64,000 nt of DNA from Lysinibacillus fusiformis. Lineage in GTDB: Bacteria > Bacillota > Bacilli > Bacillales_A > Planococcaceae. The position numbers and the translations under genes were made by a program. Below the pieces are notes generated by a model. That model saw nothing but the letters and a program-made list of their open reading frames with translations, was not told the DNA's origin and did not search any database. This document shows, piece by piece, positions 21,156-58,195 of the stretch. Numbering within the stretch: the stretch's first letter is position 1; each line of letters starts with the position of its first letter. The DNA lies in assembly GCF_016925635.1 (NCBI RefSeq), contig NZ_CP070490.1, positions 1,488,001-1,552,000 of the forward strand. Reading direction: 5' to 3'.

Positions 21156-21161
21156 TTTTCA

Positions 21162-29046: not shown

Positions 29047-29053
29047 CTAGGGT

Positions 29054-29230
29054 ACAATTAAGTTGTGTACACACACAACAATTGAAGAGTTTCAATAAAG
29101 TTGTATACTAACAAATGTTCAAACCCGCATTCTTGTGTCTTTCTTATCTTTAAAATGACAATAAAGTCGTATACTTATTTTCATCAAATTAACTTATTTT
29201 GCAATAAACTGTTACAAAAAAGTTGTATAC
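29054..29230 (+). repeat. TnsB-type binding sites at the left transposon end (four copies)
   Basis: ACAATTAAGTTGTGTAC (29054), TCAATAAAGTTGTATAC (29092), ACAATAAAGTCGTATAC (29158) and ACAAAAAAGTTGTATAC (29214), all on the plus strand reading into the element. The third resembles the Tn7 site ACAATAAAGTCTTAAAC. The spacings are unequal, as at the Tn7 left end. Confidence 0.75.
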
Positions 29231-29288
29231 CAATACGAAAATTATGTACTTACATTATAGTTTAAATATGTTTCTTCACAGCTTTATT

Positions 29289-31175
29289 CTATAAGAATTT
29301 GTTATTATGGATAGTTACTAAATCCTCTATATATTTTAGTAATTTTTCTCGTTTCTCTATATTAATTCTAATATAGTTTTTAAGATTAGCTGCTTCAATA
29401 ACCATATTTTTTGTTACAATCTCGTCTTTATATTTGGTATCCATAACAATTTTTATTCTTCTATGCCGAAAATCCTCAACCGTCTCTATATTCGAATTGA
29501 TATACTTAGTAGTAAGTGGGTATTTTCCACTGAACAAACTATAACTTGCTTTGACATCAAGTAAATTTATTATCCCTGTCCTACTTTTCCTAACCAATCT
29601 CTTTAAATTTCCTTCATGTTCTGACCAACTATCTATTATTAATTTTGCTTTGCTTAGTAATTCTTTATCTCTCTCTAAGTAATCTATTTTTTCTCTATTA
29701 CCAGTACTCCTCAAGTAAGGAGAATTGCGAATTAACCATTCTTTATCATATTGTAAAAGCCATCCGTATATTTTAGTATATGCTTTACCTAAGTCAGAGC
29801 GTGAATATTCTGGATTTTCTTTTCGGATTTTTAGAAATTCCTCTTTGTAGTACTCCGTTTTTAATTTTTGTTTGTTCATTAATCCTTCTTTGTTTTTTAA
29901 TTGAACTGAAGAAAGATGCCCCCTATTCTTAATCCTTATTACTGTATCCCTAGATATATTTGCTAATTCCGCTATTTTGTTCAGTGTTAGATCTTGTTTA
30001 AGTAATTCATTAAAATTAAGTTCCCATACTCGGCCTCGCTTTACTATTCTTCTATGGAAATCCCTTATATCAAAAGGAGATTTTTCCCCTTCCTTAATTA
30101 TGTACTCAAAACCGCAATTACACTTTATGATACCTTGAATTTTCCTATCTGAATTATTTACTCTAACATTCACATTTTTTATATTCTCTTTTAAATAATT
30201 CTTGCAAAACGGGTTCATACAAACCCAAGGTCCTTCACCAAAAGGTTTAAATGAGTTCTCCTTTTCAAAATAATTTTTGGCTGATCCACTTAATAATCTC
30301 ATTAATAATAAGTGTCTTATCGGATGTAACGACCTATTTTCTTCAATATTTATTAAACTAGGAACCCAAGAAAACTTGTCACTTATCTTGAAAAATGAAT
30401 CTAATAACTCTAGAAAATCTGTTGGATAATATTCAATTATTAACTTTTGTAAGTATTCTCTTCGCTTTTTAATGGGATATGCAAACCCTTTCTTACCTAA
30501 TAAATCTACATATTTGCTAATATAATACTCTTCAGAAAACGATTTGTAATTCATTCTAATAATGTATTCAACGTCCTCTGCTAGATCGATCAAATATTTC
30601 ATTAGTTCCTCACTATAGCTCCTAAGTGGTTCTCTAATATCTTCAATTGTTGGAATTAAATAATTTATAAAGCCCATCTCGGATATTTTTAACGAATACT
30701 CTAATAACGGAGTCTTATGCCTAGTACAAACAAAAATCCCTGGAATTTGATGAATCCTGTTCCAAAATCCTTCACCATTTGACTTAAGCTGTTCCTTTAA
30801 GCATTCTGCACAATAATATAAATATTTCTTGTTTTTTACATTGTATTTACTGTAACTAAATAAAAAAATATATAAATTTTTAAAATCACTTTTATAAATT
30901 TTCTCATTCCATTCTTCACTTTTAAAGGGTTTTACAAACGGTATCACTGTATGCTGGTTAATAAAATACTCTTTAGTAAATTCTTTCGAGAATATATTGA
31001 TTTGGGATACTAAATGAGCGAGTCCCATTGGTAATTCTAAATTAATATTTACCTTCTTTCCAAATAGTTCTTTATTTGTATGTTTTCTACTCAAGTTACC
31101 TACATGAATGTGATAACGAGCTATTATACTGTAATATAGTTCATCTTCATATGGCGTTGGAAAATAACCTATCAT
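29289..31175 (-). CDS. TniQ/TnsD-family target-selection protein (left-end copy)
   Basis: 628 aa, ATG with GAGGAG upstream. N-terminal TniQ domain (YFPTPYEDELYYSIIARYHIHVGN; zinc residues YCAECLK ... VCTRH), a second Cys cluster (CMNPFCKNY ... CNCGFEY) and a C-terminal DNA-binding region with an HTH-like stretch (LTLNKIAELANISRDTVIRI). It is a diverged paralogue of 51139-52980, of similar length. TnsD proteins bind a specific chromosomal site and recruit TnsC. It lies alone beside the left end, reading outward. Confidence 0.85.
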   Translation of the reverse strand: MIGYFPTPYEDELYYSIIARYHIHVGNLSRKHTNKELFGKKVNINLELPMGLAHLVSQINIFSKEFTKEYFINQHTVIPFVKPFKSEEWNEKIYKSDFKNLYIFLFSYSKYNVKNKKYLYYCAECLKEQLKSNGEGFWNRIHQIPGIFVCTRHKTPLLEYSLKISEMGFINYLIPTIEDIREPLRSYSEELMKYLIDLAEDVEYIIRMNYKSFSEEYYISKYVDLLGKKGFAYPIKKRREYLQKLIIEYYPTDFLELLDSFFKISDKFSWVPSLINIEENRSLHPIRHLLLMRLLSGSAKNYFEKENSFKPFGEGPWVCMNPFCKNYLKENIKNVNVRVNNSDRKIQGIIKCNCGFEYIIKEGEKSPFDIRDFHRRIVKRGRVWELNFNELLKQDLTLNKIAELANISRDTVIRIKNRGHLSSVQLKNKEGLMNKQKLKTEYYKEEFLKIRKENPEYSRSDLGKAYTKIYGWLLQYDKEWLIRNSPYLRSTGNREKIDYLERDKELLSKAKLIIDSWSEHEGNLKRLVRKSRTGIINLLDVKASYSLFSGKYPLTTKYINSNIETVEDFRHRRIKIVMDTKYKDEIVTKNMVIEAANLKNYIRINIEKREKLLKYIEDLVTIHNNKFL

Positions 31176-31395
31176 ATCCTTACTCCTCTTATTTATTACA
31201 ATGTTTTTTCAGTAAAGCTTTTTTCATAAGTAAAAACGCTACCTAAAGTATATTTCAATTAGTAATGATGTCTGTCATCCCAAATCTGTTCCATAAGTTT
31301 GTCCATCCCATTTCCCTTAGTATTTTAAAAAGACTGCTAGCTTTCACTAACAGTCAATTAATTAAACTTTATAGAATTCTCCACATTAGACTTAC

Positions 31396-31602
31396 CTATT
31401 TTACATTTGTATTAGGTATGTTGTTTTTCTTATCCCAAATAATATATATGGTGAATGCTATAGGTCCAGTTAAAAAAACACAAATCAACCATATTAAATA
31501 ACATTGCTTACTAAACTTATTTTCCAGATATTCATGTGTAATATATGATAACATTAAGATAATTAATATATATACTCCCACTATAAATAACTGATTTAAC
31601 AA
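31396..31602 (-). CDS. Small membrane protein
   Basis: About 68 aa from a TTG at 31602 with GGGGG upstream; an earlier TTG at 31617 is possible. Two hydrophobic spans (LFIVGVYILIILMLSYI and LIWLICVFLTGPIAFTIYIIW), ending in charged residues, like the N-terminal tail domain of PLD-type proteins. Function unknown. It follows the flavoprotein gene by 15 bp, so it may be the last gene of the arsenic operon. Confidence 0.5.
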   Translation of the reverse strand: MLNQLFIVGVYILIILMLSYITHEYLENKFSKQCYLIWLICVFLTGPIAFTIYIIWDKKNNIPNTNVK

Positions 31603-31617: not shown

Positions 31618-32973
31618 TTAGCAACATGTATTTGATTGATTGACAAGATTAATACTACATACGCCTGTTTCTGGTAATTCTAATTCAACACGTTTCGACG
31701 CTTCTTCATCTCCTGATAAATAAGCTGTTATTGAACGAACCTGTTCGTAGCCGGTTGCCATTAAAAATGTTGGTGCGCGTCCATAACTTTTAGCTCCGAC
31801 TATATAGAAGTCCTTTTCAGGTTGGCGTAGTATTTCTTCACCATGCGCTCTGACTGTGCCACAACTATGCTCATTAGGATCAATTAGTGGCGCTAATGCT
31901 TGCACACTTTCTGTTGCTGTATCAATAGATAAACGCAGTTCATTGTTCATGGTAAAATCAGGTCGATTTCCTGCATTAACAATAAGTTCATCGAATCCTG
32001 TAAGTACTTTTTGTTCTCCATTAATAGTACCTACAATATGGATATTCTCTTCTTTTTTCACCTGTGAAATATAGAAAGGTGTTACTACCTCAATCTTTCC
32101 TGTATCTACTAATTCATGGATGCGAATACCGAGTGCGCCACGTGCTGCCAACGCATCTTTTTCCTCCCCGCCATAGGCTTCTTCTACAGATCTTTTACGC
32201 ATAATCCACACAAGCTTTGTTGAAGGATTATCTTTTTGTAATTCAGCCAAAGCTAATAAGGTATTGATCGCTGAATGACCACCACCAATGACAGCAACCT
32301 TCTTATTTGCATATCTCTTAGGATTCGTATTTATATCTGGAATACCATACTCAATGTGATCTGCTAATACTTTCTCATTTTTCAGCCAAACACCTGTAGA
32401 ATTTGCTGGGTTTGGGTTCCCCCATGTACCCGTTGCATCGATAACTGCTTTTGCCTCAATAATATCGATGTCATCCTCTTTTTCAACATATATATTAAAG
32501 AACTGATTTAATCGATTTTTTGATTTCATTTTATCATTTAATTGTCTTGAAATACCTACTACTTTTGAGTTCAATCGGATACTAGGTTTTATTTGTGTTA
32601 ACTCTGCCAAAGGTTTTAAATAAAGATCAATTAACTCATGCCCTGTAGGTATTGTTTCTAAGTTAGGTTCTACCCAATCAGACCCCTCTAATAATGATTT
32701 AGCAGCTCTATTGATGTTATAACGCCATGGAGAAAATAATGTGACATGCCCCCAAGTACGAATATTGTGTGCTATTTCATTGCCAGCTTCAAGTAAAATA
32801 AATGACTGGTTTTGCTCTACTAAATGAGCAGCAGTAGCTAACCCGATAGGACCTGCACCAATTATGACAATCGGTAAATTCTTATTGGAATTATTAACAG
32901 TCTCTTGGACTTCAATGTCCTGAACAGGAGTACAACAAGATTGATTTTGATTGATTACTTTTAGTGTTTTCAT
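31618..32973 (-). CDS. FAD-dependent oxidoreductase / flavin monooxygenase of the ars cluster
   Basis: 451 aa. FAD motif IIGAGPIGLATAAHL after a Cys-containing leader (NQSCCTPVQD); second nucleotide motif VIGGGHSAINTLLALA; ends in NTCC. The Cys pairs at both termini are suggestive of metal(loid) handling, but that is inference. Similar flavoproteins (ArsO-like) are known in ars operons of Bacillota. It reads with the upstream ArsR-Acr3-ArsC-ArsD-ArsA genes. Confidence 0.82.
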   Translation of the reverse strand: MKTLKVINQNQSCCTPVQDIEVQETVNNSNKNLPIVIIGAGPIGLATAAHLVEQNQSFILLEAGNEIAHNIRTWGHVTLFSPWRYNINRAAKSLLEGSDWVEPNLETIPTGHELIDLYLKPLAELTQIKPSIRLNSKVVGISRQLNDKMKSKNRLNQFFNIYVEKEDDIDIIEAKAVIDATGTWGNPNPANSTGVWLKNEKVLADHIEYGIPDINTNPKRYANKKVAVIGGGHSAINTLLALAELQKDNPSTKLVWIMRKRSVEEAYGGEEKDALAARGALGIRIHELVDTGKIEVVTPFYISQVKKEENIHIVGTINGEQKVLTGFDELIVNAGNRPDFTMNNELRLSIDTATESVQALAPLIDPNEHSCGTVRAHGEEILRQPEKDFYIVGAKSYGRAPTFLMATGYEQVRSITAYLSGDEEASKRVELELPETGVCSINLVNQSNTCC

Positions 32974-33368: not shown

Positions 33369-33650
33369 TTAGCAAGATGTCGGTGAGTATCCAACTAATA
33401 CTAAACCTAGCTCACCATTCTCTTCTTCTGCATGGATCGTAACATCTGTTAATTGCGGTGCAATATCAGGATGAATTGCGACTTCGATACCTTCAATTGT
33501 TTGAATTGCATCTTCTTCTGCTGGTGCTTCTAAGCCTACACCTAAATTAACCCCACAGCAGCCTGCAATACCAAAGAAACGAAGCGTTTTAACCTCTGAA
33601 TCAGCTAATACCTGTTCTAAATAATTTTTACCTTCTAGACTCATTTTCAT
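33369..33650 (-). CDS. HesB/IscA-like protein of the ars operon
   Basis: 93 aa with the layout of the IscA/HesB fold: start SLEGKNYLEQVLADSEVKTL, a Cys pair in FFGIAGCCGVNLGVGL and a C-terminal Cys in YSPTSC. Such small proteins are often annotated as adhesin or HesB-like. Three cysteines could bind an Fe-S cluster or arsenite. Start overlaps the ArsA stop (ATGA), so it is translationally coupled to the pump ATPase. Confidence 0.75.
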   Translation of the reverse strand: MKMSLEGKNYLEQVLADSEVKTLRFFGIAGCCGVNLGVGLEAPAEEDAIQTIEGIEVAIHPDIAPQLTDVTIHAEEENGELGLVLVGYSPTSC

Positions 33651-35416
33651 TTGATTTTCTCTCCTTTTAATTCATGTAAGCCTTGTGTTCCAACCGGTGG
33701 CGTTTTTACCCATGGAATGGCCACAAATTGATTATTGCTGATGGATCTAACTTCTTTTAGCCATTTCGTTTCAGCTTGTTGTTTTTGAATTAATGTTGGA
33801 CTTGTTGTATAGATAGATGAAAACGTTTGATTAACAACCCACCAATCAACAGATAATCCAGCACGGTGTAAATCTTCTTGTAAGCGCGAAGCTTCATAAA
33901 CAGGTGTTGCTTCAGGAAGAGTTACAATGGCAACACTCGTATAAGAGGCATCACGCAACCTTGGTAACAGGTTAGAAACAGCTGGAGGAATATCCCCTTG
34001 TGAACGGCTTATTTCCCGATGATAAGCTTCTGTTGCGTCTAGTAAAAGCAACGTATGCCCTGTTGGTGCGGTATCAATAATAATGACTTCATCTTGATGA
34101 TTTTCTACAACGTTAGCAAATGCTTTGAATACAGCTATTTCCTCTGTACAAGGAGAAGCCAAATCCTCTTTCACAAATGCTAAACCTTCCTCATTCATCG
34201 TTTCACTTGCCTTTGCAAGCACTTCTGCTTCATAGTTTGCCACTTCTGCTTTTGGATCAATACGACTGATCGTTAAATTATTAACGTTGTCATCTCCGAA
34301 TGTCCAATCGAGGTGTGCGGCGGGATCTGTTGTAGTTAAATGTACATGAGTATCCTCTTCTGCTAATCGTAATGCAATATAAGAAGCCACAGTTGTTTTT
34401 CCAACCCCACCTTTCCCCATCGTAAAAATGAGTTTCGGTTTACGTTCTAAATAATCTGCAATCATTTCTTCTATCTCAGGAATCTTAGTTTCTTCATTTG
34501 ATTCATCTGCATGTATAACTTCTTTGTCAGTCATCCATGCTTGCATACGCTCAATACTTGATAATGAGTACGGTACAAAAGGTAAGTAGAAATGCTCAAA
34601 TTGATTTAGTTCTTCAGGAATTCTTGCTATTGCATCAGCTTGACGCGCAATGAAAGCCTCTTCGATATCATCAGTAGAATTGGCATTGCTCATATATCCA
34701 TTAATTAGTAGAGTCTGATTTTGAATGCCTATTTCAAACAATTCGTGAGAAGCACGTGCAGCTTCCTTTAAAGGATTTTCTTCTGGGCGTGTCACTAACA
34801 TTAACGTTGTTTGATTAGCATTCTTTAAACGTTCAACTGCCTCTTTATAGACTTCACGTTGTGGTTCTAGCCCTTTTAAAGGACCTAAACATGAAGTGCC
34901 AGTCGTGTTATCGTCTAGAAACGTAGACCATGCAGAAGGCAACTGTAATAATCGTAACGTATGCCCTGTAGGGGCTGTATCAAACACCACAGTGTCAAAA
35001 TTCCCAATCACTGAAGTATCAGTCAATAGTGAAGCAAATTCATTAAAGGCAGCAATTTCTACTGTGCAAGCACCAGAAAGTTGTTCCTCCATATTTTGTA
35101 ATACCACTTCAGGTAGTTTTCCACGGTACGGACCAACCATTTGCTCTTTGTAATGTTGTGCTGCCTGTTCAGGGTCCAAATTTATCGCAAATAAATTGTC
35201 TATGCCTTCAATTTTTGTTGGACTATTAGAAAGCGTTTGGCCAAAAATATCTTGTAAGTTGGATGCGGGGTCTGTACTAATTAAAAGTACCTTTTTCCCT
35301 TCCCTTGCAATGGCTATTGATAGGCTACAAGCAACCGATGTTTTCCCAACGCCCCCTTTCCCCGTGAAAAACAGGAATGGGGTGTCAGGGAAATGAATTC
35401 TTGTAAAGCGTTCCAT
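33647..35416 (-). CDS. arsA: ArsA arsenite-transporting ATPase
   Basis: 589 aa from the ATG with GGAG 9 nt upstream; the ATG three codons earlier abuts it. Two homologous halves, each with a deviant P-loop (FFTGKGGVGKTS near 20; FTMGKGGVGKTT near 330) and DTAPTGHTLRLL / DTAPTGHTLLLL switch motifs. Arsenite-binding cysteines are present in SGACTVEIAAF, TTGTSCLG and ASPCTEEIAVF. Hydrolyses ATP to drive arsenite out, usually through ArsB; here the membrane partner is Acr3. ArsD gene lies immediately upstream. Confidence 0.95.
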   Translation of the reverse strand: MERFTRIHFPDTPFLFFTGKGGVGKTSVACSLSIAIAREGKKVLLISTDPASNLQDIFGQTLSNSPTKIEGIDNLFAINLDPEQAAQHYKEQMVGPYRGKLPEVVLQNMEEQLSGACTVEIAAFNEFASLLTDTSVIGNFDTVVFDTAPTGHTLRLLQLPSAWSTFLDDNTTGTSCLGPLKGLEPQREVYKEAVERLKNANQTTLMLVTRPEENPLKEAARASHELFEIGIQNQTLLINGYMSNANSTDDIEEAFIARQADAIARIPEELNQFEHFYLPFVPYSLSSIERMQAWMTDKEVIHADESNEETKIPEIEEMIADYLERKPKLIFTMGKGGVGKTTVASYIALRLAEEDTHVHLTTTDPAAHLDWTFGDDNVNNLTISRIDPKAEVANYEAEVLAKASETMNEEGLAFVKEDLASPCTEEIAVFKAFANVVENHQDEVIIIDTAPTGHTLLLLDATEAYHREISRSQGDIPPAVSNLLPRLRDASYTSVAIVTLPEATPVYEASRLQEDLHRAGLSVDWWVVNQTFSSIYTTSPTLIQKQQAETKWLKEVRSISNNQFVAIPWVKTPPVGTQGLHELKGEKIK

Positions 35417-35417
35417 C

Positions 35418-35777
35418 TTACGCATCTCCTTTTAGTGACAAGCGTACTTTTGGCTTTTGTAGTAATTCGTCTTCTGAAAGTCCTGACCACTGTGAAAATT
35501 GTTCATTTGTTGGATAGATTCCTTTGCAAAGTAATTCTCCATCCACAAACGTTGCAGGTAAGGCATCCATTCCTTCTGACACTAATAGTTGATTGATTGC
35601 TTCGTTTTCTACAAAAGCATTTGGCTCGTTTGTAAGATTAAATCTTTCAGCTTCTATGTTTGTTTTCTTTAAATTATTCATAATAAATGACATTCGCAAT
35701 AATTCTGGGTCTATAGAAGGTCCACATAAGCCTGTAGAACAGCACATTGCTGGCTCATAGATATGAATTTTTTTCAA
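35418..35777 (-). CDS. arsD: ArsD arsenite metallochaperone
   Basis: 119 aa, TTG start with GAGGAG about 10 nt upstream, usual length. The essential cysteines are in EPAMCCSTGLCGP (residues 12, 13, 18). A later YPTNEQFSQWSGL is conserved. ArsD passes As(III) to ArsA, in keeping with its place just before arsA. Confidence 0.93.
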   Translation of the reverse strand: MKKIHIYEPAMCCSTGLCGPSIDPELLRMSFIMNNLKKTNIEAERFNLTNEPNAFVENEAINQLLVSEGMDALPATFVDGELLCKGIYPTNEQFSQWSGLSEDELLQKPKVRLSLKGDA

Positions 35778-35778
35778 T

Positions 35779-36198
35779 TTATTTCAGCTCCTCAGCTACA
35801 AATTGTTCAATGCGTTTACCAATTGCATCACGAACATTTTGGAATACAGCCCACTTCTCTTCATCAGTACCTGTCGCTTTCGCTGGATCTTCAAATCCCC
35901 AATGCTCACGACGAACGTGAGGAGGTGTCATTGGGCATTTATCAGCTGCATCCCCACATAAAGTGACAACTAATGTTGCATTGTTTAATGTCTCAAAATC
36001 AATTAAATCGGATGTATGATTTGAAATATCAACCCCTACCTCCGCCATCGCTTTAGTAGCATTCGGATTTACGCCATGTGCTTCAATACCAGCACTTTTA
36101 ACTGTCCAATTGGTAGGTAGTAATTTCTTTGCCCATCCTTCAGCCATCTGACTTCGACATGAGTTTCCTGTACATAAGAAATAAAGTGTATTTGTCAT
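35779..36198 (-). CDS. arsC: Arsenate reductase ArsC (thioredoxin-dependent, LMW-PTP fold)
   Basis: 139 aa. P-loop [16 protein letters not shown] with nucleophile Cys10 and CX5R; the redox cysteines of the shuttle are in [11 protein letters not shown] (about 82 and 89). This is the S. aureus pI258 / B. subtilis type, which reduces arsenate using thioredoxin; a thioredoxin reductase gene lies upstream on the same strand. Good AAGGAG site. Confidence 0.95.
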
Positions 36199-36210
36199 AG
36201 TAATTGCTCC

Positions 36211-37269
36211 TTATAATTTAATGGTTTTAAAGTATTTTTTCTGCCAACGTAAGGCAACCCATACAAGTCCAATGAGGACTGGTACTTCCACTAGTGGTCC
36301 AATAACAGCGGCAAATGCCACGCCACTATGCAAGCCAAACACACCCACTGCAACAGCAATTGCTAACTCGAAGTTGTTGCTTGCAGCTGTAAAAGAAAGA
36401 GCTGCTGTGACAGGATAAGATGCACCTACTTTACGGGAAGAGAAGAATGACACAGCAAACATGATCACAAAGTAAATAAATAATGGAATAGCAATTCGCA
36501 CTACATCAAGTGGCAGTTCTACTAATTGCTCACCCTTTAAAGCAAACATCAACACAATCGTGAACAGCAGTGCAATTAAAGTAAGTGGTGAAATTTTCGG
36601 TAAGAACTTTTCTTCATACCACTGTTTTCCTTTTGCTTTAATTCCTATCCATCGTGTGAGGAATCCTGCTGCAAATGGTATCCCTAAGTAAATTAGAACG
36701 CTCTTTGTAATCTCCCACATAGAAATGGATACATTGAAATTCTCTAAACCAAACCAACCAGGTAATACATTTAAGAAAAAGTAAGCAAAAATTGAATACG
36801 TCACAATTTGAAAAATGGAGTTAAAGGCAACTAAACCAGCTACATATTCACGATCTCCACGCGCTAAATCATTCCACACAATCACCATGGCAATACATCG
36901 AGCTAAGCCAATCATAATGAGTCCAGCCATATATTCTGGGTAATCTTGTAAGAAGATAATCGCTAAAAAGAACATGAGGAACGGGCCGAGTAACCAGTTT
37001 TGTAAAAGTGATAGTAAAAGCACTTTCCAATCCTTAAACACTCGCCACATTTCCTCATATTTCACTTTCGCTAATGGTGGGTACATCATGACAATTAACC
37101 CTATCGCAATCGGTATCGATGTTGTTCCAATTGACATAGATTCTAATGCTTCACCAATATTGGGCATTGTGATACTTAATACAACACCTATTCCCATTGC
37201 AACAAAAATCCATAGTGTAAGGTAACGATCTAGAAAAGAAAGCTGTTTGGTTAAAGATTCATTACTCAT
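36211..37269 (-). CDS. acr3: Acr3-family arsenite efflux permease
   Basis: 352 aa with 10 membrane spans. Opens with [20 protein letters not shown], and has the Acr3 Cys in [19 protein letters not shown] and Glu in [18 protein letters not shown]. Exports As(III). ATG overlaps the ArsR stop. Because arsA and arsD are present, it may work as an ATP-coupled pump. Confidence 0.94.
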
Positions 37270-37588
37270 TTATATTTCCCCCTACATGACAGCAATCGGT
37301 TTCACAATTGCACCCCTTTAAAAGCTGAATCTGTTCTAAAATGCCCTTCATCAATGGGGTTTGCTCCTCCACTAATCGATAATGTTTCCAAGTCCCTACT
37401 TTTCGTTCCGTAATAATGCCTGCCTCCTTTAATTTTCGTAGATGCTGACTAACAGCTGGTTGTGATATGCCTAGCACATCCACAAAATCACATACACATA
37501 CCTCCCCATTTTTCATGCATGCAAGTAATTTAATTCGATTTAAATCTGCAGCTGCTTTTAATTGTTTTTCTATTAGTGTATTTTCCAT
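37262..37588 (-). CDS. arsR: ArsR arsenic-responsive repressor
   Basis: 108 aa winged-helix protein of the ArsR/SmtB family. Metal-site ECVCDF motif appears as [11 protein letters not shown] on alpha-3; the HTH is [19 protein letters not shown]; a C-terminal CNCETDCC tail adds further Cys. First gene of the ars operon with Acr3 coupled to it; expected to repress the operon until As(III)/Sb(III) binds. Confidence 0.92.
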
Positions 37589-37686: not shown

Positions 37687-37805
37687 GTTATGTTCTTTGA
37701 ATTAGACATTCAAGAGACATTTACCCAATATTAAAAATTTTATGTCTTTTATTCAATTTCAATTCAATAAAATATTCTTTATATTCTTTATATTCTTTAA
37801 AATAC

Positions 37806-38759
37806 TTATTGGCTATTCCTCTCCATCCAATCACTAACAGTAATTCCTTCTATATATCTTTCTACTTCAAGCGCAGCCATACATCCTGTACCAGCAGCTG
37901 TAATTGCTTGGCGGTATTTATTATCTTGTACGTCTCCACAAGCGAAGATCCCTGGAATATTTGTTTCTGTTGTACCCGGCTTAACCTTGATATATCCCAT
38001 GTCATCTGTATTAATTAGTCCATTCAAAAAAGATGTATTTGGGGTATGACCAATAGCGATAAAGATTCCATCCGTTTGAATAACTTTTTCTTCATTCGTT
38101 TCATTATTTATCACTTTTAAACCAGTAACTCCATTTTCATTTGCCATTACTTCTGTTGGTGTCATATTAAGTTCCCAAGATATTTTGGAATTTTCTCTTG
38201 CCCTAATTTGCATGATTTTGGATGCACGTAGTTCATTTCTTCGATGTACTACAATTACTTCACTTGCAAACTTTGTTAAGTAATTCGCTTCTTCCATAGC
38301 TGAGTCGCCACCGCCAACAATAATAACTTTTTTGTTACGGAAAAAAAATCCATCGCATGTGGCACAAGTACTAACTCCTCTCCCTATGTTTTCTTTTTCT
38401 CCTGGTATGTTCAAAAGTTTTGCAGAAGCACCTGTAGAAACAATCATAGATTTAGTCTCAATTTCACCTAACCCTTGAACCTGTAATTGAATATATCCTT
38501 TTGAACAATCTATATTTGTTACCCACCCACGTTTAAATTTAGCACCAAAACGCTCGGCTTGTTTCCTCATATTATCCATTAATTCTGAACCTGATATTCC
38601 ATTTATGAAACCTGGGAAGTTTTCAATATCTGTTGTTAAAGTCAGTTGTCCACCAGGTTGTTCTCCTTCAATTACAATTGGTTCCATATTTGCTCTTGCC
38701 AAATAAATAGCTGCAGTTAGTCCAGCTGGTCCTGTTCCTAAAACAACAGTTTTTTTCAT
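37806..38759 (-). CDS. trxB: Thioredoxin reductase
   Basis: 317 aa, usual length. FAD motif GTGPAGLTAAIYLARA, active-site CATC (TCATCDGFFF), NADPH motif VGGGDSAMEEANYL. Keeps thioredoxin reduced, the electron donor of ArsC-type arsenate reductases. It is probably a cargo copy additional to the housekeeping gene. Strong AGGAGG site. Shares an upstream motif with arsR. Confidence 0.92.
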   Translation of the reverse strand: MKKTVVLGTGPAGLTAAIYLARANMEPIVIEGEQPGGQLTLTTDIENFPGFINGISGSELMDNMRKQAERFGAKFKRGWVTNIDCSKGYIQLQVQGLGEIETKSMIVSTGASAKLLNIPGEKENIGRGVSTCATCDGFFFRNKKVIIVGGGDSAMEEANYLTKFASEVIVVHRRNELRASKIMQIRARENSKISWELNMTPTEVMANENGVTGLKVINNETNEEKVIQTDGIFIAIGHTPNTSFLNGLINTDDMGYIKVKPGTTETNIPGIFACGDVQDNKYRQAITAAGTGCMAALEVERYIEGITVSDWMERNSQ

Positions 38760-38780
38760 AATTACCCTCCTAAATAGTCA

Positions 38781-38809
38781 AAAACATTAGTATATAACTA
38801 TAATCTTAT
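38781..38809 (-). promoter_or_regulatory. Shared arsR/trxB upstream motif
   Basis: AAAACATTAGTATATAACTA then TAATCTTAT; compare 37658-37686. Confidence 0.45.
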
Positions 38810-38852
38810 ATTAAGCTTCGCTACATAATTTTGCAATAGTTATTTAGCCTGT

Positions 38853-39269
38853 TTAAAAAATTCTTTTTAGTGCTGCTTTCATTTCGGGTTTTAACTTAAT
38901 ATTAGAACGAGCGTTTCTTGCAATTTCTTCAGCTTCTTCAATGGTATTGGCTTTACTTAAAGTAATAAGTGTACCTACAGCCACAGCACCGGTACGATTA
39001 CTTCCATGATTACAATGAAAATATATATTTTTCCCATCATTATAAGCATTTACAACTGTATTAATAGATTTTCTTACAGATGCATCTTGTTGAGTAAAAT
39101 CATCAACAATAGGACAATGCAATCGAGTATTATTAAATTTCACATTGGGTGCTTCAGCTCTCAAATCAATTATTAAGTCTATTTTTTCGTTTTTCACGAC
39201 ACTTTCTACAGCATCAGCACTCCCAATATAAATTCGATCTTTAATCAATTCATCATAAGGTTTAGGCAC
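38853..39269 (-). CDS. Dual-specificity-type protein phosphatase
   Basis: 138 aa from a GTG with AGAGGTG upstream; an ATG 12 codons earlier has no site. The signature loop is HCNHGSNRTGA (HCX5R), preceded by a general-acid region (LIIDLRAEAPN ... PIVDDFTQQD). In this operon, with a thioredoxin reductase and an ArsC fusion, it could act on arsenate, arsenate esters or a regulator; that is inference. Known arsenate reductases of the Acr2/Cdc25 group use a related CX5R loop. Confidence 0.8.
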   Translation of the reverse strand: MPKPYDELIKDRIYIGSADAVESVVKNEKIDLIIDLRAEAPNVKFNNTRLHCPIVDDFTQQDASVRKSINTVVNAYNDGKNIYFHCNHGSNRTGAVAVGTLITLSKANTIEEAEEIARNARSNIKLKPEMKAALKRIF

Positions 39270-39341
39270 CGTAATCACCTCTTTACTAATATCATTTCTT
39301 ATCATGAGCTTTTAACTATAAATAAATACTATAAGTTAAAG

Positions 39342-40019: not shown

Positions 40020-40110
40020 GATTTCACTCCTTATATAATTATTTACTTATATATTAATTGCATAATATATTGTTAGCAAGATATATATTGTTAACAATTT
40101 GTAAAAAATC

Positions 40111-40142
40111 AAGAGTACACCTAGTTATCTAAGTGTACTCTT
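40111..40142. terminator. Rho-independent terminator
   Basis: AAGAGTACAC/GTGTACTCTT stem between the resolvase-like gene and the ArsC fusion gene; A-run on the left suits the minus strand. Confidence 0.7.
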
Positions 40143-40167
40143 CAAATGTTCATTAAAGCTATTTGCT

Positions 40168-40716: not shown

Positions 40717-40809
40717 CAATTTACCTCCAGTTCATGTCCCGAAAAGGTTCCCTTTTAGGAATATAGGTGTTATGATACTCATAGAATTTTAATAATAAAG
40801 GAGAATATC

Positions 40810-42243: not shown

Positions 42244-42255
42244 AGGAGGAAAAGT

Positions 42256-44766: not shown

Positions 44767-44799
44767 CAATCAAATAATCGTTTGAACGTTTGAATGATA
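44767..44799 (+). promoter_or_regulatory. Candidate CadC operator
   Basis: CAATCAAATAATCGTTTGAA then CGTTTGAATGATA, directly before the ribosome binding site of cadC. Confidence 0.6.
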
Positions 44800-44814
44800 A
44801 CTGGAGGAAAATAT

Positions 44815-51138: not shown

Positions 51139-52980
51139 TCAGAATTTTTGCTTCGCACTTATTATCTGCCTTTTTATTTCTATCTCTAACCCAGAATAAA
51201 ATCTTTCACTGATTCCTGCTTTTCGCATTATTTTCCAAACTTCAAGTTCTTCATCTTTTAATTGATCTATAGCCCAACTAATACGCCTCTTTTGAAAATT
51301 GGTCGTATTTTCTTTAACACTCTCAATATACTTCATCGTATTGGGCAGTTTATTTACTCTTTTTTCTAACAACGATTTATTATTAATCATTTTACCTATA
51401 CTGCTTACGGTTATTCTAACTGGTTTTTCTTTAGCACTTATATCTTCCACTGCTTTTTTTACCATGCCCAAGATGTGAAGGTCTCTCTGTACCCAATCAA
51501 CTCTTTTATTAGTAACCCTATTTACTTTAACAACTGGGGAATGTTCCTTTAACCATTCCTTATCATTTCTATAAATTCGCATATAAAGTGATGGGTCTTT
51601 TTTTCTAAGTTCTGTTCTTGATAATATGGGGTATTGGTTAATTAAATCAAGCCATTTTTGCTTCAAATCACTTTTAATATGATTTTCCTTGTTCATAGGC
51701 TTACTATTTCTTTGCTTAGAATACTTAATAATTGTTTTGGTGTCGACTTTTAATATTTTTGAGCATGCTTTATAACTCAACTGTTCTATTTCAACCAATT
51801 GATGGAGTTTGCTCAACCAAGTATCACCTAACATCTTAATACGCCCTATATTTGTTTTATCCTCTTCTGTTTTATCTGGCCCCTTACGAGAATAAACAAA
51901 GCCACAGGCACAGGAGAAGGTTCCTACCGGCCTTTTAGTATCATAGCAACGAGTAACCTTTAAATTAGTTATTACAGGCTGTAGAAAGTGTTCTGCCGCA
52001 GGATTCAAACATAGATATGGCTCTTCACCAAATGGACTATATCGTTTATTTGCATACTGTTCAATTGTATCAACCGATTCACCTAAAAAATAAATGAACA
52101 GTAAATGCCGTACAGGATGAAAAGACTTTCGATGTTTTCTTGTTATTGCCCTTAACCAACACTGTCCTTCTACACCACTTGGAAATGATTGCATCAATAT
52201 TAAAAAATCGACCTTAAACTTCTTAATAAAGTCTTCTTCTAATCGCCTTTGGTCGATTGTGCCGTTTGATTTTACATACCCTTCGCGATCCAATAGGTAA
52301 TGATAAATCTCTAATAAATTTAACTGATCAAATTTATAATCCTTTTGATTTAAGTTGCTACTTTCTACAGCAAAATGACGTAGCAAATCAAAGTTTACTT
52401 TTGAAACATCACTTTTATTGCCCTTCTCTAAACTGTTTTCAATGTTTGAATAAAAATACGAAGAGTTTCCTTGCCTAATTAAGATTGAACTGTCTACAAG
52501 CAAGACAGAATGCTTTAAACAAATAAATACACTTGGTAATTGGTGATATGTCCGCCAATATGTTTCTCCATTCACTTGAATATCTTCTTCAAAGCAGTTA
52601 GGACAATAGCGAAAATACATAGGCTCTTTTACTGTCCCAGCCATTTGACCTGTTGAATAATGCAAGGAAGTATTGCCACAGCCATATAACATTTTATTTC
52701 GAACACTCTGTTTTATTTCTTTTGAAGTAAAATTTGTATAGTAGTTATACAATGTATGATAATTTATCCATTCATCAATACTCGAATTTAAAAAAGGATT
52801 TACTTTTTCTAATAATATCTCTAAATCAGTAGGTAAATCAGGAATAATATATGCTTTCTTTTTTCCAAACAAATCTAAAGTTGAATGTTTATTACTTAAA
52901 TTCCCTGAACGTTTATGGTATCTAGCCAACACACTATATAATAGTTCATCTTTATAAATTGAAGGAAAAAATGCTAACAT
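51139..52980 (-). CDS. TnsD/TniQ-family target-site selection protein (operon copy)
   Basis: 613 aa. TniQ domain at 1-200 (FFPSIYKDELLYSVLARYHKRSGN; zinc ligands YCPNCFEED ... CLKHS), a second Cys group (CLNPAAEHFLQ ... CACGFVYSR) and a C-terminal DNA-binding region with LSYKACSKILKVDTKTIIKYS. Fourth gene behind tnsA-B-C with 19 bp spacing. Should bind the attachment site and bring TnsC. Paralogue: 29289-31175. Confidence 0.88.
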   Translation of the reverse strand: MLAFFPSIYKDELLYSVLARYHKRSGNLSNKHSTLDLFGKKKAYIIPDLPTDLEILLEKVNPFLNSSIDEWINYHTLYNYYTNFTSKEIKQSVRNKMLYGCGNTSLHYSTGQMAGTVKEPMYFRYCPNCFEEDIQVNGETYWRTYHQLPSVFICLKHSVLLVDSSILIRQGNSSYFYSNIENSLEKGNKSDVSKVNFDLLRHFAVESSNLNQKDYKFDQLNLLEIYHYLLDREGYVKSNGTIDQRRLEEDFIKKFKVDFLILMQSFPSGVEGQCWLRAITRKHRKSFHPVRHLLFIYFLGESVDTIEQYANKRYSPFGEEPYLCLNPAAEHFLQPVITNLKVTRCYDTKRPVGTFSCACGFVYSRKGPDKTEEDKTNIGRIKMLGDTWLSKLHQLVEIEQLSYKACSKILKVDTKTIIKYSKQRNSKPMNKENHIKSDLKQKWLDLINQYPILSRTELRKKDPSLYMRIYRNDKEWLKEHSPVVKVNRVTNKRVDWVQRDLHILGMVKKAVEDISAKEKPVRITVSSIGKMINNKSLLEKRVNKLPNTMKYIESVKENTTNFQKRRISWAIDQLKDEELEVWKIMRKAGISERFYSGLEIEIKRQIISAKQKF

Positions 52981-52999: not shown

Positions 53000-54628
53000 T
53001 TACATTATTAAGTCATCTAAAGGATTTTTAATATATCCTTCTTCACATAATGCCTCATAAGCAGAGCGTTTATTCTTCTTTCCTATATCAACTATTGATT
53101 GAAGTTTATTTACTGAAATATTGCCTTTCGCTTCATTTTTCTTTTCTTTCTTTCCCTCAATGTATTGGAGTGATAGAGTCATTAGTTGTGGAATTGTTGA
53201 CTCAGGTGAATTTTTCAGTGCATATTTAGCAGCGTTTTCAGCAATTTTTTCTGAAACATCTAAATTAATTAAGGATAGGATTAATTTTTCTAGTATTGGA
53301 AGTTCTTTATTTGTACGATCTTGTGCCATCTTTTCTTTTTTCGCCTGAACCCTGGCCTTAAGGTCTAATACTGGCAATCTATTTAGAATATAATCTTCAA
53401 TATCCATTGGAACAATATCTTCGTATTTTGCAATGTCGCTTTGATTTCCGGATTTAAGAGCCTCCAACATAGGTTGAAGAAGTTTCAAATCTTCTTTCAC
53501 TACCTTTTGTATAAGTTTAGGGGTTATTTTTTCAAGGCCAGAATTGATTGCCCTCGCTTGTGCGAGTAAATACAACTTAACAGCAACATCCACAATTCCT
53601 TGGCTCTCTTCGTAAATCGTGTTTAATAATTCTTCTGTCAGTTCCGTATATTCATTCGTCCACTGATAATCCCACATACTTGTGATTAATACTTCCCAAT
53701 CATCATCTTGTTTCATTTGCTGCCATACCATGTCGCCTTGGCCACTGCTTCTACGTGCTTGTCTGAAATCCTTTTGTAATAATGCCTTGGCTTTCATGGT
53801 TCCAATAAACATTACTGGTACTCCTATTTCATTCACTAGCGTTACAAAAAAATTCATCATCATTTCTGATGCAGCACCTGATGCAGATAACGAGTGCTGA
53901 ACCTCATCAATGATTAGAGCGCCTATTGAGTGTAAACGAGCGACTTGCCCCATACGAGTTACCATTGAACTAACTGAATTTGATGGCTTACCATACTTTT
54001 CAAAATAATTAGTACCTGTCAACGAATCAACTTTTTTGAAAAAGTCCATACAAAGAGTTTTTAATGATCCATCATGTGGACAATCCAATTTTAACCATAC
54101 AATTTGAATCAAATTGATTGGATTTTGATGCAATATTACTTGCGGATAAAGAGATAGTACCCTTTCTATCGCAGATGTTTTACCTATTCCTGGATATCCC
54201 ATTAAAGTGAAACTTGAAGCAGAAGAACGTATATCTGGCGGTAATCCAATTTCCTCTTTATTAACAAGCTTGTTGTGTAAATCAAGTAATGCTTGAACAT
54301 GTTTTTTATGTAATGGATTTCGATTAACATATCCATACCTAATGAAACCTGAAAAACGCTGTTCTAGATTTAAGGTTTGATTTATAGGCTGATAAAATCT
54401 TGATAATCTTAGTAAAGCATGGTAACGATGATGACTTGATAAATTTCTTTCACTATTATGAAACATAGGTATAAAGCTAAGTTGATCAAACGCTTCTTCT
54501 TTAGAGAGTATCGGAGGTAACGCTTCAATAAGGGGATTCCCTTTATAATCAATTATTTCTTGTTCACGATACTCTGCCAATAGAACTTCAATACCACTCT
54601 CTAATTCAATTGTCTTCCCATTTTTCAT
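53000..54628 (-). CDS. tnsC: TnsC-type AAA+ ATPase
   Basis: 542 aa, near the length of Tn7 TnsC. Walker A GYPGIGKTS at about 144-152 and Walker B ALIIDEVQHSL at about 230-240, sensor segment VPVMFIGTMKA. ATP-dependent switch that links the target selector to the TnsAB transposase. ATG overlaps the tnsB stop by 4 bp. Confidence 0.92.
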   Translation of the reverse strand: MKNGKTIELESGIEVLLAEYREQEIIDYKGNPLIEALPPILSKEEAFDQLSFIPMFHNSERNLSSHHRYHALLRLSRFYQPINQTLNLEQRFSGFIRYGYVNRNPLHKKHVQALLDLHNKLVNKEEIGLPPDIRSSASSFTLMGYPGIGKTSAIERVLSLYPQVILHQNPINLIQIVWLKLDCPHDGSLKTLCMDFFKKVDSLTGTNYFEKYGKPSNSVSSMVTRMGQVARLHSIGALIIDEVQHSLSASGAASEMMMNFFVTLVNEIGVPVMFIGTMKAKALLQKDFRQARRSSGQGDMVWQQMKQDDDWEVLITSMWDYQWTNEYTELTEELLNTIYEESQGIVDVAVKLYLLAQARAINSGLEKITPKLIQKVVKEDLKLLQPMLEALKSGNQSDIAKYEDIVPMDIEDYILNRLPVLDLKARVQAKKEKMAQDRTNKELPILEKLILSLINLDVSEKIAENAAKYALKNSPESTIPQLMTLSLQYIEGKKEKKNEAKGNISVNKLQSIVDIGKKNKRSAYEALCEEGYIKNPLDDLIM

Positions 54629-56775
54629 TCCTTCTTCTTCCTTCTTTGCTTTTTAAATAATTCCATTATCGTAGATGTTTCAGTTTTTTCATCTTTCTGC
54701 TCAGAAGGTGCAAAAGAAATAATGTTTTTATCATTATCAATCTCAGTTACACCTATTTGAAATGCCTCATACTCTCTTCGTAAACTTTTTTCAACTTCCC
54801 GATTTTCTCTAATATTTTTTATTTTTTCCGTTTTAGTGATTTTATTATTTTCATCTTGATTTGGTGTCTTAATTGCCTCATCCACTATTCCTTCAATTTT
54901 AGAATAAAAATTAATTTCTTCTTGTAACAAACTATGACTTTCAATTTTATATGTGTTTTGTTCAATCATTAATAATTGTTCAATTTCTTCAAGTACTTTA
55001 TTTTTGTATCTCTCCTGATGATCTAAAAGGAAGCAACTTTCAAAAAGTGATTTATCATTAATGTGCAGATAAATAATGTCCATGTTTCGAGGATCGTATG
55101 AAATATCAACTGTCCAACTTTTCTTTGTTCTAGCTTGTACAAACCAAGATTCCTTTATAGCTGTTTCACAGCTAAATAACCTATTTTTAAACTTTATTCC
55201 CTTTGAGGTTACTGTAGCTGTATCTCGTGGCAATAAGTAAAACTTTATAGTATTAGGATGTTCCTTCCTTAGCTTACCTGCTCTATTTTTAATGCCCCAA
55301 TTCCAGAGTTTAAGAGGAGTCGGTTTTACATTTTCCCGTATCATCTGCTCATCTCTTAGATAATCCTTCATATAGTGATTTTTGTTATAAAATAAAACAA
55401 AATTGATTAGAATTTTTGTATATTGATCTATAGTTAACTTAGCTTCTAAACGATAATCACTAGCCCCACGTTCCCTAAAATCACTCTGTATGTAACCTGG
55501 TAAGAACGGCTTTATTTTACTTTGTGAAGTATCGAACAATTTTTCCACAATTCCCTTCCAATCTGGTCGAAAAGCAGGATTATTCTCCACTACCAAATCC
55601 AACCCTTCAATTAAACTATTCACGTTATATCCCTCCAACTCACCTCTATCCCCTAGAATAATTTCAGGAAGATGCGCAGATGGCCACATTTCATTTGAAA
55701 TTTCTATACCATATCTACTGCAATATTCCTTTTTATCTGATGCTGCATTTGCTATTGCCATCATCATTCCTGCCCAAGAAGGACCTTCAAATCCGATATA
55801 CATTCCTGTAATCATATGTGTATATACGTCCACCACAAAATATATAATTGGTTTACCTACAATATAATCAGAATTAAAACTAGATACCAGATACACATTA
55901 CCAATAGTCGCATCTATTTGATATCGTGATCCTGGCCCCATGACTTCATAAGTTGAAGATCCTAATATTGCTCGATGATCTCGTTCAAATTTTTTCTCAC
56001 CTTCTCGACTTACTATTTTTTGTTCAATACCAAATTCTTTGTTGTGCCAATATCTAAATTGTCTTAATGAAGGAATTTTATTTTCATCCTGTATTACTAT
56101 ATATTTTGTTCCGTTTTCGTAACGAACTTCATCTGCATAGAACTCCTTTATCATCATTTTATATGCGAATGACAATGAGTTTCTCTTGCTTGTAAAATAG
56201 TACCTTTTAATCGATTTACGAAATATTTCCCTTGTTTCATCGGTTACATTTATTCCTACACTGTTAGTGGTTCTAGGTTTTCCCCTTTTCAAAGTACCAC
56301 TTTTTTTATTTCTTCCCTTACCTCCAGAGTTACTATAATCCGGAAGCAAACTATTCATAGTTTTTCCTCTCTGCCAGTACTTTCTCAAATATTTATAAGC
56401 AGTCATTTTTGTACATACTTTATTATTTACAAGTTCATTTATTAGCTGCCCACGTTCTTTTTTCTTATAAATTGAAGGTTCATCATTCACTAAGTTTTTG
56501 ATAATTGCCCACGCTGTGTCTCTCTTTTGTTTCATTCCCTCAGGTAAATTAATGTGGTTAATTAGTATGTTTGTGTGATCAGATTCGAATTTGGAGTATG
56601 AATTTTCTATAAATCCTTGATGTATATCTTTAACTTTTAAAAGGAATGGTAAGGCATTGGAATCTTCTATATCAATTGCATATGTAACGATGTTACTTTC
56701 ATCAATCCAAAGTAGACGATATACTTTATTACACGTCAAGTCTTTAATTAATTCATTAACTGATATTGTAATCAA
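54625..56775 (-). CDS. tnsB: TnsB-type DDE transposase
   Basis: 716 aa from a TTG with AGGAGG 6 nt upstream, inside the end of tnsA; the upstream ATG precedes that site. N-terminal HTH domains, then an RNase H-fold integrase core with catalytic D288 (YQIDATIGN), D376 (LGDRGELEG) and E411 (DWKGIVEKLFD), and a C-terminal part with a TnsC-contacting tail. Cuts and joins the 3' ends of the element and recognises the end sites. Confidence 0.93.
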   Translation of the reverse strand: MITISVNELIKDLTCNKVYRLLWIDESNIVTYAIDIEDSNALPFLLKVKDIHQGFIENSYSKFESDHTNILINHINLPEGMKQKRDTAWAIIKNLVNDEPSIYKKKERGQLINELVNNKVCTKMTAYKYLRKYWQRGKTMNSLLPDYSNSGGKGRNKKSGTLKRGKPRTTNSVGINVTDETREIFRKSIKRYYFTSKRNSLSFAYKMMIKEFYADEVRYENGTKYIVIQDENKIPSLRQFRYWHNKEFGIEQKIVSREGEKKFERDHRAILGSSTYEVMGPGSRYQIDATIGNVYLVSSFNSDYIVGKPIIYFVVDVYTHMITGMYIGFEGPSWAGMMMAIANAASDKKEYCSRYGIEISNEMWPSAHLPEIILGDRGELEGYNVNSLIEGLDLVVENNPAFRPDWKGIVEKLFDTSQSKIKPFLPGYIQSDFRERGASDYRLEAKLTIDQYTKILINFVLFYNKNHYMKDYLRDEQMIRENVKPTPLKLWNWGIKNRAGKLRKEHPNTIKFYLLPRDTATVTSKGIKFKNRLFSCETAIKESWFVQARTKKSWTVDISYDPRNMDIIYLHINDKSLFESCFLLDHQERYKNKVLEEIEQLLMIEQNTYKIESHSLLQEEINFYSKIEGIVDEAIKTPNQDENNKITKTEKIKNIRENREVEKSLRREYEAFQIGVTEIDNDKNIISFAPSEQKDEKTETSTIMELFKKQRRKKKE

Positions 56776-57589
56776 TGTTATCCTCCTTAGAAACATTCAT
56801 AATAATTTGATCTAAAGTTAGATTGCTTGGGTTAATTTTCTTACTCATATCAATCGAAATATATTTTCGAGCTATAAAATGTTTTATATAACTTAAAGAT
56901 GAGCCTGTTTCTAAGTTATAATCCTCATCAAATTTATTACAAACTACTAATAAACTCTCTTCGCTATCTTTTTTTAAAATCAATAAATGCAATAATAAAG
57001 TAGAATAGCTTATATCTTCTTCTGCTAAATAATAAGATTTATGTATCCATAGAATATTGTTTGCTAGTTGTTTAGGAATTTCCTTTTCAGTTATGACCCC
57101 CCAACTTATTCCTTGTATCTCCCAATACTCTCGTTCAATTTCAAACTTTTCAATTACTCGTTTATCTTCAAGTTGTTCACTTGGTTTTACAGTTCTAGCG
57201 ATATATTTTCTTTCAGAGTTTTTTACTACTGTTATAAAGAAATCTGTTGTCATATCTATCGGTATACCTGAACTATTATCTTTAGAGTGCTTAATTCCTT
57301 TCTCTTCAGCTATACGAATAGTTGTTTCAACATTTAAAGGAAACTGTTCTCTTATGTCTACCACTGTATCTTCCCAATCTAATAAGAGAAAAAAGTCTCT
57401 TTCCAAGTTAGACAACAATTCATGCTGTCTCTTCGCGGTCCACCCTATTAATCGAGAAGCATTTCCTTGTGACGATATATCTTGTATTTTAATCCAAGGT
57501 ATATAATTTGATAGTTCCCCTTGACCTCGTCCTTCTTTAATATAGTCATTTCTTTTTTTCTCAGACCAACCGTATTTCCTTTTAGACAT
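56756..57589 (-). CDS. tnsA: TnsA-type endonuclease
   Basis: 277 aa from the ATG at 57589; a longer frame from 57625 is possible. Restriction-like nuclease with acidic residues in NLERDFFLLLDWED and MTTDFFITV and the Lys in ARTVKPSEQL, followed by the C-terminal TnsC-binding helices. Makes the 5' cuts so that the element moves by cut and paste. First gene of the operon, outermost as in Tn7. Confidence 0.9.
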   Translation of the reverse strand: MSKRKYGWSEKKRNDYIKEGRGQGELSNYIPWIKIQDISSQGNASRLIGWTAKRQHELLSNLERDFFLLLDWEDTVVDIREQFPLNVETTIRIAEEKGIKHSKDNSSGIPIDMTTDFFITVVKNSERKYIARTVKPSEQLEDKRVIEKFEIEREYWEIQGISWGVITEKEIPKQLANNILWIHKSYYLAEEDISYSTLLLHLLILKKDSEESLLVVCNKFDEDYNLETGSSLSYIKHFIARKYISIDMSKKINPSNLTLDQIIMNVSKEDNIDYNIS

Positions 57590-57793
57590 GTAAAGCACCG
57601 CCTCGTCGACATAATTATGGTTCAAAAAAATAATTTCTAAAATTATTATAACTTTTTGACTTACTTGTAGTTTAATTTATTCCATTTTATAAAAGTATTT
57701 ATATTACAATCGTTTACACATAAAAAACGTCCTTTAAAGAGTGGACGTTTGCTAATTTTAGTAAGAAAAATACTATACTTTCTTCGATTCACA
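57590..57793. other. Region outside tnsA, possible right-end sequences
   Basis: Reading on the minus strand there are weak relatives of the left-end sites: GTCAAAAAGTTATAATA (about 57660-57644) and GAATAAATTAAACTA (about 57682-57668). TGTGTAAAC starts at 57720 on the minus strand and could be an alternative terminus. A hairpin AAACGTCC/GGACGTTT lies at 57726-57750. Confidence 0.35.
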
Positions 57794-57997
57794 TTATGTT
57801 TTTAACAGCCCTTGATTATATACAATCCACTTCTCCAATTCTCTTTCTACCGCTCGATTTTGCCATTCAAACCAAATCCCAATACACTCACTACAATGAC
57901 TGTCAACACCGATTTTATTATGCAAATCCTTACATGTAAAAATGGTCTTTTTACGACACTTATAACAGTAGATTTCAATCTCTTTATAAAATTCCAT
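57794..57997 (-). CDS. Small zinc-ribbon-like protein
   Basis: 67 aa, ATG with AAAGGT upstream. Two CxxC pairs (CYKCRKK, CSECIGI) plus an additional Cys and His. Located outside tnsA but inside the inferred right boundary. No known family recognised; a DNA- or metal-binding role is possible. Confidence 0.6.
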   Translation of the reverse strand: MEFYKEIEIYCYKCRKKTIFTCKDLHNKIGVDSHCSECIGIWFEWQNRAVERELEKWIVYNQGLLKT

Positions 57998-58188
57998 AAA
58001 TATTACCTTTCATTTTATTTATATTCATTTCCATTAAAGGGACAAAAAATACATAAAATCATTAAGGTATTCTTTTGTATTAACTAAATAAAAATGTTGT
58101 TAAGTTGTTAAAAATTTCAATTGAAATTTTAGAAAAAAGATTGAGTATTTCTATAGGGTAGGTTATTTAATATGAACCACGACCAATA
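57998..58188. other. Outer right-end region
   Basis: A/T-rich, no gene. AAAATTTCAATTGAAATTTT at about 58111-58130 is a perfect palindrome. Candidate weak TnsB-type site GTATTAACTAAAT near 58077. Confidence 0.35.
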
Positions 58189-58195
58189 ACCCTAG

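Follow-up and report, generated by a model that had tools for sequence, protein, structure and literature searches.

A 54-kb Tn7-like Transposon with a Central tns Operon and Metal-Resistance Cargo Inserted beside glmS in Lysinibacillus

The 64,000-nucleotide stretch of Lysinibacillus fusiformis DNA analyzed here (the window; positions 1488001-1552000 of a single-contig 5.01-Mb genome, G000) contains the left end and the tnsABCD genes of a 54,010-bp Tn7-like transposon, which occupies positions 29083-83092 and is inserted downstream of glmS (numbers above 64000 continue the window numbering, and G000:C1 positions are obtained by adding 1488000). The element extends 19 kb past the window, and its right end lies outside it. 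We regard its extent, ends, and insertion site as very nearly certain; the ends, the target duplication, the putative TnsB-type arrays, the TnsA, B, C, and D homologues, the position at glmS, and the near-identical copies elsewhere can all be read from the sequence. The element is thus truly a Tn7-like transposon that homes to glmS; its exact ends are established, it has spread recently among species, and it is of a known kind and new in layout. An earlier sequence-only reading of the window had proposed one Tn7-like element loaded with metal-resistance genes, and in this it holds, arsenic, cadmium, and copper domains all being found, whereas the 29-kb length that it gave falls short.

Ends and Target Site of the Element

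The left transposon end (29083-29230, plus strand) begins TGAAGAG, and its first base is also the first base common to the copies described below. It carries three TnsB-type sites on the plus strand (29092-29108, 29158-29174, and 29214-29230), in agreement with the earlier observation of such sites near 29.1-29.2 kb (29092, 29158, 29214). The right end (83007-83092, minus strand) carries the same site inverted four times, at 83007, 83027, 83047, and 83067, just before glmS. Its terminus, CTGAACA, is followed by ACAAT (83093-83097, outside the window), matching the five bases that precede 29083 (29078-29082). The ends, together with the duplication at both junctions, therefore delimit the element as 29083-83092. 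The 5-bp target duplication predicted by the sequence-only reading is present, although as ACAAT and not ATATA. The termini have the form TG...CA; read inward, the right end starts TGT and the left end TGA, and the earlier remark that the ends lack the usual TGT was made about other positions.

The two arrays, three sites on the left (plus) and four on the right (minus), are mutually inverted and consist of putative sites from a 17-base scan over 124 kb that includes both ends, with a consensus built from the end sites themselves. At three or fewer mismatches the scan returned nine sites: seven belong to the two ends, another (29054) falls in the older flank, and the last (4019) is a stray; ten simulated sequences gave zero to two sites each. 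This excess over the longer stretch differs from the result for AAGTTGTATAC, which at two or fewer mismatches showed none across the window (30 found versus 30.9 expected).

Tn7 makes 5-bp target duplications, and its classic insertion site is just downstream of glmS. In G000, glmS (83117-84919, minus strand; genome positions 1571120-1572925) lies ~19 kb beyond the window, after the right end, and 19 bp separate the duplication from its stop codon. The element therefore lies downstream of glmS at a distance of ~20 bp, its right end facing the gene, an arrangement of the attTn7 type.

Near-Identical Copies in Two Further Species

A near-identical element occupies the same place beside glmS in L. 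boronitolerans (G002) and L. macroides (G011). The sequence common to all three genomes stops exactly at 29083 and 83092; they become identical at 29083, the preceding base being T in G000, A in G002, and C in G011, and each copy is bounded by its own exact duplication (ACAAT/ACAAT, AACAA/AACAA, and CTTAC/CTTAC, respectively), three pairs that mark three insertions. Outside ~37.0-44.6 kb, the element blocks are 99.9%-100% identical to G000 (one block of 15,204 bp in G002 has no mismatch at all, and one of 19,482 bp in G011 has 3), with 99.99% identity from 44628 on, whereas the adjoining chromosome on the glmS side is 94.7% identical in G002 (11,892 bp) and 86.7% identical in G011 (11,729 bp). 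This difference suggests that the element was transferred recently among Lysinibacillus species. TnsB homologues occur in 12 of 32 genus genomes, with 100% identity in G000 and G002, 100% over residues 49-723 plus a separate 93% piece over residues 2-57 in G011, and at most 65% in the rest.

These junctions bear directly on the extent first proposed, a 29-kb element from 29047 to 58195 with ATATA duplications and host chromosome beyond 58201, which we now consider practically untenable. CTAGGGT at 29047 and ACCCTAG at 58189-58195 do exist, each with ATATA outside it, and tnsA near such a right end would be canonical. The two motifs are, however, not element ends. ACCCTAG is also found at 7713, and no TnsB-type site with three or fewer mismatches lies near 58195, the nearest being four-mismatch sites at 56992 and 57499, a level seen by chance elsewhere. 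G002 continues nearly identical across 58195 (G011 has an assembly gap there and is silent on the point), and the copies share 29083 and 83092 instead, so that the three junction pairs refute the shorter extent. Position 58195 is internal, and the genes beyond 58.2 kb, previously assigned to the chromosome, belong to the element up to 83092. A right end at 57720, where the sequence ends in ACA, was considered and rejected, there being no site array and G002 being nearly identical straight across.

At the left, the window flank 28526-29066 matches another genome, G021, at 97.8% over 542 bp, and in G021 this match, running through 29066, reaches the glmS stop codon ~95 bases later. Because G021 has this flank beside glmS without the element, 29047 and its CTAGGGT are host-side sequence, and the empty-site comparison suggested by the sequence-only reading places the junctions elsewhere than it had foreseen, with glmS of G000 standing after the true right end. 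No TnsB match was found in G021 in the homologue search, and a TnsA fragment with stops lies a few kilobases from its glmS-side flank. When the G000 flanks are joined with one ACAAT, 26 bases lie between GTGTACACACA and TTACTC (the glmS end); G021 has 26 bases at the same position, with mostly different letters.

A further alternative is that two adjacent elements, an inner 29-kb Tn7-like one and a separate copper island (58.2-82.7 kb), are stacked at glmS. By eye, another Tn7-like end stands directly left of the element in G002 and in the record CP031730 (described below), and older end-like sequence stands left of it in G000 and G011. Moreover, a block related to both edges of the right-hand cargo (58225-61748 next to 81302-82718; 92%-94% identical) sits elsewhere in G003 and, nearly the same, in G002:C33. 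Yet within each of the three species the two outer termini are flanked by one and the same duplication, whose letters differ between species; the left and right arrays consist of a single type of site, and the scan found no internal array. We therefore judge two stacked elements to be very improbable. A single 54-kb transposon remains the preferred reading; one insertion event now joins both parts, though the right-hand cargo may have been captured earlier, and since the related block sits elsewhere in G003 and G002:C33, it was probably acquired as cargo and expanded afterward.

Several observations weigh against the 54-kb assignment. The whole element is on one contig only in G000, the assemblies breaking near 76.1 kb in G002 and between 56.8 and 59.8 kb in G011; the ends of these two copies are therefore linked only by their matching duplications and their identity. 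In G011 both tnsB and tnsD2 (a second tnsD gene, described below) are interrupted, by 2.2 and 2.4 kb, respectively; the insert in tnsD2 encodes an IS66 transposase (Pfam), and that in tnsB begins with the same protein start. Finally, G021 belongs to another species and does not match G000 in the bases beside glmS.

Sequences beside glmS

The glmS gene is present in all 32 genus genomes, and site-like arrays often stand at a similar distance from it in the printed genus sequences (by eye, uncounted), in line with a hot spot. In G021, the counterpart of 28526-29066 (L056 7974-8514) ends in repeated GTACAATTAAGTTGTACAGG-like units, which by eye resemble the residual end of an older Tn7-like element; the present one landed between this end-like sequence and glmS. 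The left neighbor in G002 (L050 11626-12000) is the apparent tnsA end of another Tn7-like element (tblastn 43%; Pfam just below cut-off), and it forms a putative stack at glmS. In G018 a similar right-end site array lies beside glmS (L130 12686-12762), perhaps a remnant; this genome has a partial TnsA on another contig, and a TnsB match was not found there.

Further left in the window, two segments (28524-28652 and 28824-28948; ~130 and ~125 bp) are found in many copies throughout the 32 genus genomes, at ~70%-90% identity, and appear to be dispersed repeats. Rfam returned nothing at gathering thresholds over 28400-64000, and thus no match for the repeat region from 28400 onward. Compared with the 28.5-29.0 kb flank, the segment 21038-26791 (ATP-binding cassette transporter, two-component system, CAAX protease) runs in the opposite orientation in both G021 and G011, which suggests an inversion in the region 21038-28526.

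The tns Operon Is Central in the Element

As the sequence-only reading had stated, tnsA, tnsB, tnsC, and tnsD genes are present, on the minus strand at 51.1-57.6 kb (Pfam). They are the tnsA endonuclease (56756-57625; PDB 1t0f, Tn7 TnsA, 1.5e-48), the tnsB transposase (54625-56796; PDB 7pik, Tn7 TnsB, 8.4e-111, aligned over residues 20-716), tnsC, encoding a TniB-like AAA ATPase (53000-54628; Pfam AAA_22/TniB), and tnsD1 (51139-52980; 613 aa; Pfam TnsD 4.1e-105, TniQ 9.3e-21; PDB Tn7 TnsD 8.5e-22). No cas gene family was among the best matches of the scanned open reading frames (not every frame was scanned, and no dedicated CRISPR search was made).

In Tn7, tnsA is adjacent to the right end. 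Here tnsABCD is central, and 25 kb of copper-type and probable mercury cargo separates tnsA from the right end (25,467 bp from the tnsA start). We surveyed tnsA-glmS distances in the family from the first 64 of 78 tnsA matches, leaving out the 14 weaker ones, wherever glmS was also among the matches listed. On the resulting 44 contigs, tnsA lies <2 kb from glmS in 29, 2-6 kb in 8, 6-12 kb in 2, 12-60 kb in 2 (G000 and G256), and farther in 3; in G132 and G163 the distances are 10.9 and 8.8 kb. G256, with tnsA 34.8 kb from glmS, was considered as a parallel case of a central operon and rejected, another end type standing at its glmS (by eye), so that it is probably a stack.

Metal-Resistance Cargo

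Left of the operon, tnsD2 is followed by an FAD/NAD(P) oxidoreductase gene (31618-32973, minus; weak ArsO-like score below cut-off) and an arsenic cluster (33369-37588, minus; NCBIfam) of arsR, acr3, arsC, arsD, arsA, and a small HesB-like gene, the last after arsA with a score below cut-off and no Pfam hit. Then come genes for a thioredoxin reductase, a phosphatase, an arsC-helix-turn-helix protein, a serine resolvase, a SulP-type transporter, and a Usp protein (37738-42819), a MarR regulator with a flavin monooxygenase-like oxidoreductase (42814-44415, minus), and an ArsR-type regulator with a cadmium-family P-type ATPase (44794-47548, plus). The segment 47663-50621 encodes an isoprenylcysteine methyltransferase-like protein (plus) and a cupredoxin, a DsbD-like membrane protein, and a DeoR/NosL-type protein (minus).

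Within this block, 37.0-44.6 kb of G000 differs from the two copies (88% and 96% in its left block, with lower identity just after 42.8 kb), and 37738-42819 is lacking in both. The segment 37002-44628, with ~5 kb extra in G000 that includes the serine resolvase and a second arsC-type gene, would represent a swapped cargo segment.

The right-hand cargo starts at 58035, CP031730 homology stopping at 58034, fills the window to 64000, and continues to ~82718. In the window it encodes a multicopper oxidase (58270-59805), a VTT protein, a C39-like peptidase, a DUF1541 protein, and a cupredoxin (Pfam); beyond the window, Pfam finds two P-type ATPases (one with HMA domains), MerR, a MerA-like reductase, an ISL3 transposase, a D-Ala carboxypeptidase, a two-component system, and DsbD-like and redoxin proteins. 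Named from Pfam domains only, these are copper-type and probable mercury genes.

A Second TnsD at the Left End

TniQ and TnsD domains occur in two proteins of the element (Pfam). The second, TnsD2 (628 aa; 29289-31175, minus; Pfam TniQ 8.7e-14, TnsD 6.8e-64), is encoded next to the left end, shares 29.6% identity with TnsD1, and keeps CxxC and CxxH in its TniQ region. A full-length frame is found in G000, G002, G133, G166, and CP031730. The gene lies near the left end in G000/G002, CP031730 (44% identity), and G166 (32%), and is in pieces in G011; the G133 relative (34%) sits between glmS and tnsA.

A TnsD tree of 36 sequences (44 frames collected, 9 shorter than 480 aa dropped, the window TnsD1 added, the short G011 D2 piece kept, and CP031730 left out) places the D2 proteins of G000/G002, G011, G014, G133, and G166 in one clade (100/100) and the D1 proteins of G000, G014, G166, and G133 in another (97/94); the long D2 branch meets an outlier, so that the attachment point of the D2 clade is unsure. 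With the D2 query, the 1e-75 threshold was passed in 7 of 261 family genomes, six of them the D2-clade genomes and the seventh (G244) outside the clade; the search at the level of the order reached these same 261 genomes and is therefore taken as equally wide. The ratio of nonsynonymous to synonymous substitution rates (dN/dS) is ~0.29 between G000 and G014 (495 codons). As the G014 copy is itself split and dS is 1.5, this value bears on past selection only, under which TnsD2 looks to have been.

In Tn7, TnsE is the second target selector. With much less confidence than we place in the element itself, we suggest that TnsD2 acts as an alternative target selector, doing the job of TnsE, for a target other than glmS. 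TnsD2 might instead be a redundant glmS selector or a decaying relic, a reading that is quite plausible if short of an even chance. The gene is interrupted in G011 and split in G014, and is therefore dispensable for upkeep; every tnsD2-bearing element that could be placed is at glmS, no other TnsD2 site being seen among them; and tandem tnsD pairs are common in Tn7-like loci, as far as the relevant part of PMC10293859 describes them. These points count against a dedicated selector, whereas the full-length frames in five genomes or records, the retained CxxC and CxxH, the dN/dS of ~0.29, and the identity of only ~30% to TnsD1 argue against redundancy or decay.

Related Elements

CP031730, filed as a Stenotrophomonas rhizophila plasmid, has glmS, phosphoglucosamine mutase, a TIGR00159-family gene, and sigW in a row, an order that we take to be typical of Bacillales and that G021 has in common for glmS and the mutase. 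On this ground the stretch (L120, L177) is probably Bacillales DNA; a mis-assembly or contamination around glmS-sigW in the record is possible. Its related element is 32,427 bp long and flanked on each side by CACAT, and 1.9 kb separates tnsA from its right end. Identity to G000 is 91.7%-93.8% for TnsA, B, and C and 96% (nucleotides) for the ars and cad stretches. A SIR2-domain gene, possibly a defense gene, lies between its left end and tnsD2 (L177 25774-27207). The G166 element, 43,351 bp long, is flanked on each side by ATAGC, and its tnsA adjoins the right end.

Discussion

On our reading, TnsAB would cut both ends, TnsC would link TnsAB and the ends to the target, and TnsD1 would recognize the 3′ end of glmS, the unit moving by cut-and-paste with its right end toward glmS. 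It carries one cargo block (arsenic/cadmium) between tnsD2 and tnsD1 and another (copper-type/probable mercury) between tnsA and the right end, and TnsD2 could direct it to a target other than glmS. More broadly, we put forward, as a tentative idea that we think somewhat improbable, that a Bacillales glmS-homing lineage keeps a fast-diverging second TnsD, in most cases encoded at the other end of the element, and dedicates it to a second targeting pathway (one leading, for instance, to plasmids or to a further attachment site) in the role of TnsE, and that the element can in addition take up cargo on the right-end side of tnsA without losing the ability to transpose, so that surveys demanding an end near tnsB would miss such elements. 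With tnsD2 well away from the operon, whether there is a second target can be tested directly.

The layout indicates that a tns operon can be central in its element, and the ends of this large metal-resistance transposon, which moved recently between Lysinibacillus species, are fixed exactly and replicated independently by the three junction pairs. The tnsB gene lies 27.7 and 26.3 kb from the two ends, both beyond the criterion of an end <20 kb from tnsB given in the methods of PMC8649781, under which the true end pair would be passed over. In the literature searched, which was not covered thoroughly, no such Lysinibacillus element is named.

Comparison with Known Systems

Among known systems, the element resembles Tn7 of Escherichia coli in its TnsA, B, C, and D homologues, its 5-bp duplication, and its position directly downstream of glmS, right end toward the gene; the part of PMC8649781 describing the Tn7 ends gives three left and four right TnsB sites, the same numbers as here. 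It differs from Tn7 in the second TnsD beside the left end, the 25.5-kb distance from tnsA to the right end, and the metal cargo. Like the "dual tniQ-tnsD" Tn7-like elements, it has two tnsD-type genes; those are tandem, at 1,048 loci, in the account we draw on from PMC10293859, whereas here ~20 kb separates the pair, one gene belonging to the tns operon and its partner standing at the far end of the element, a distinction made by description. BCEGI-1 of Bacillus cereus ATCC 10987 likewise has Tn7-type tnsABCD in an island directly after glmS on a Bacillales chromosome, but with two tnsABCD sets, as compared by the description excerpted from PMC2359905. The enterobacterial Tn7/pco/sil element is also of Tn7 type and carries copper resistance, but it has tnsABCDE, silver cargo, and a length of ~33.7 kb, again by description only, from the pertinent section of PMC8417528.

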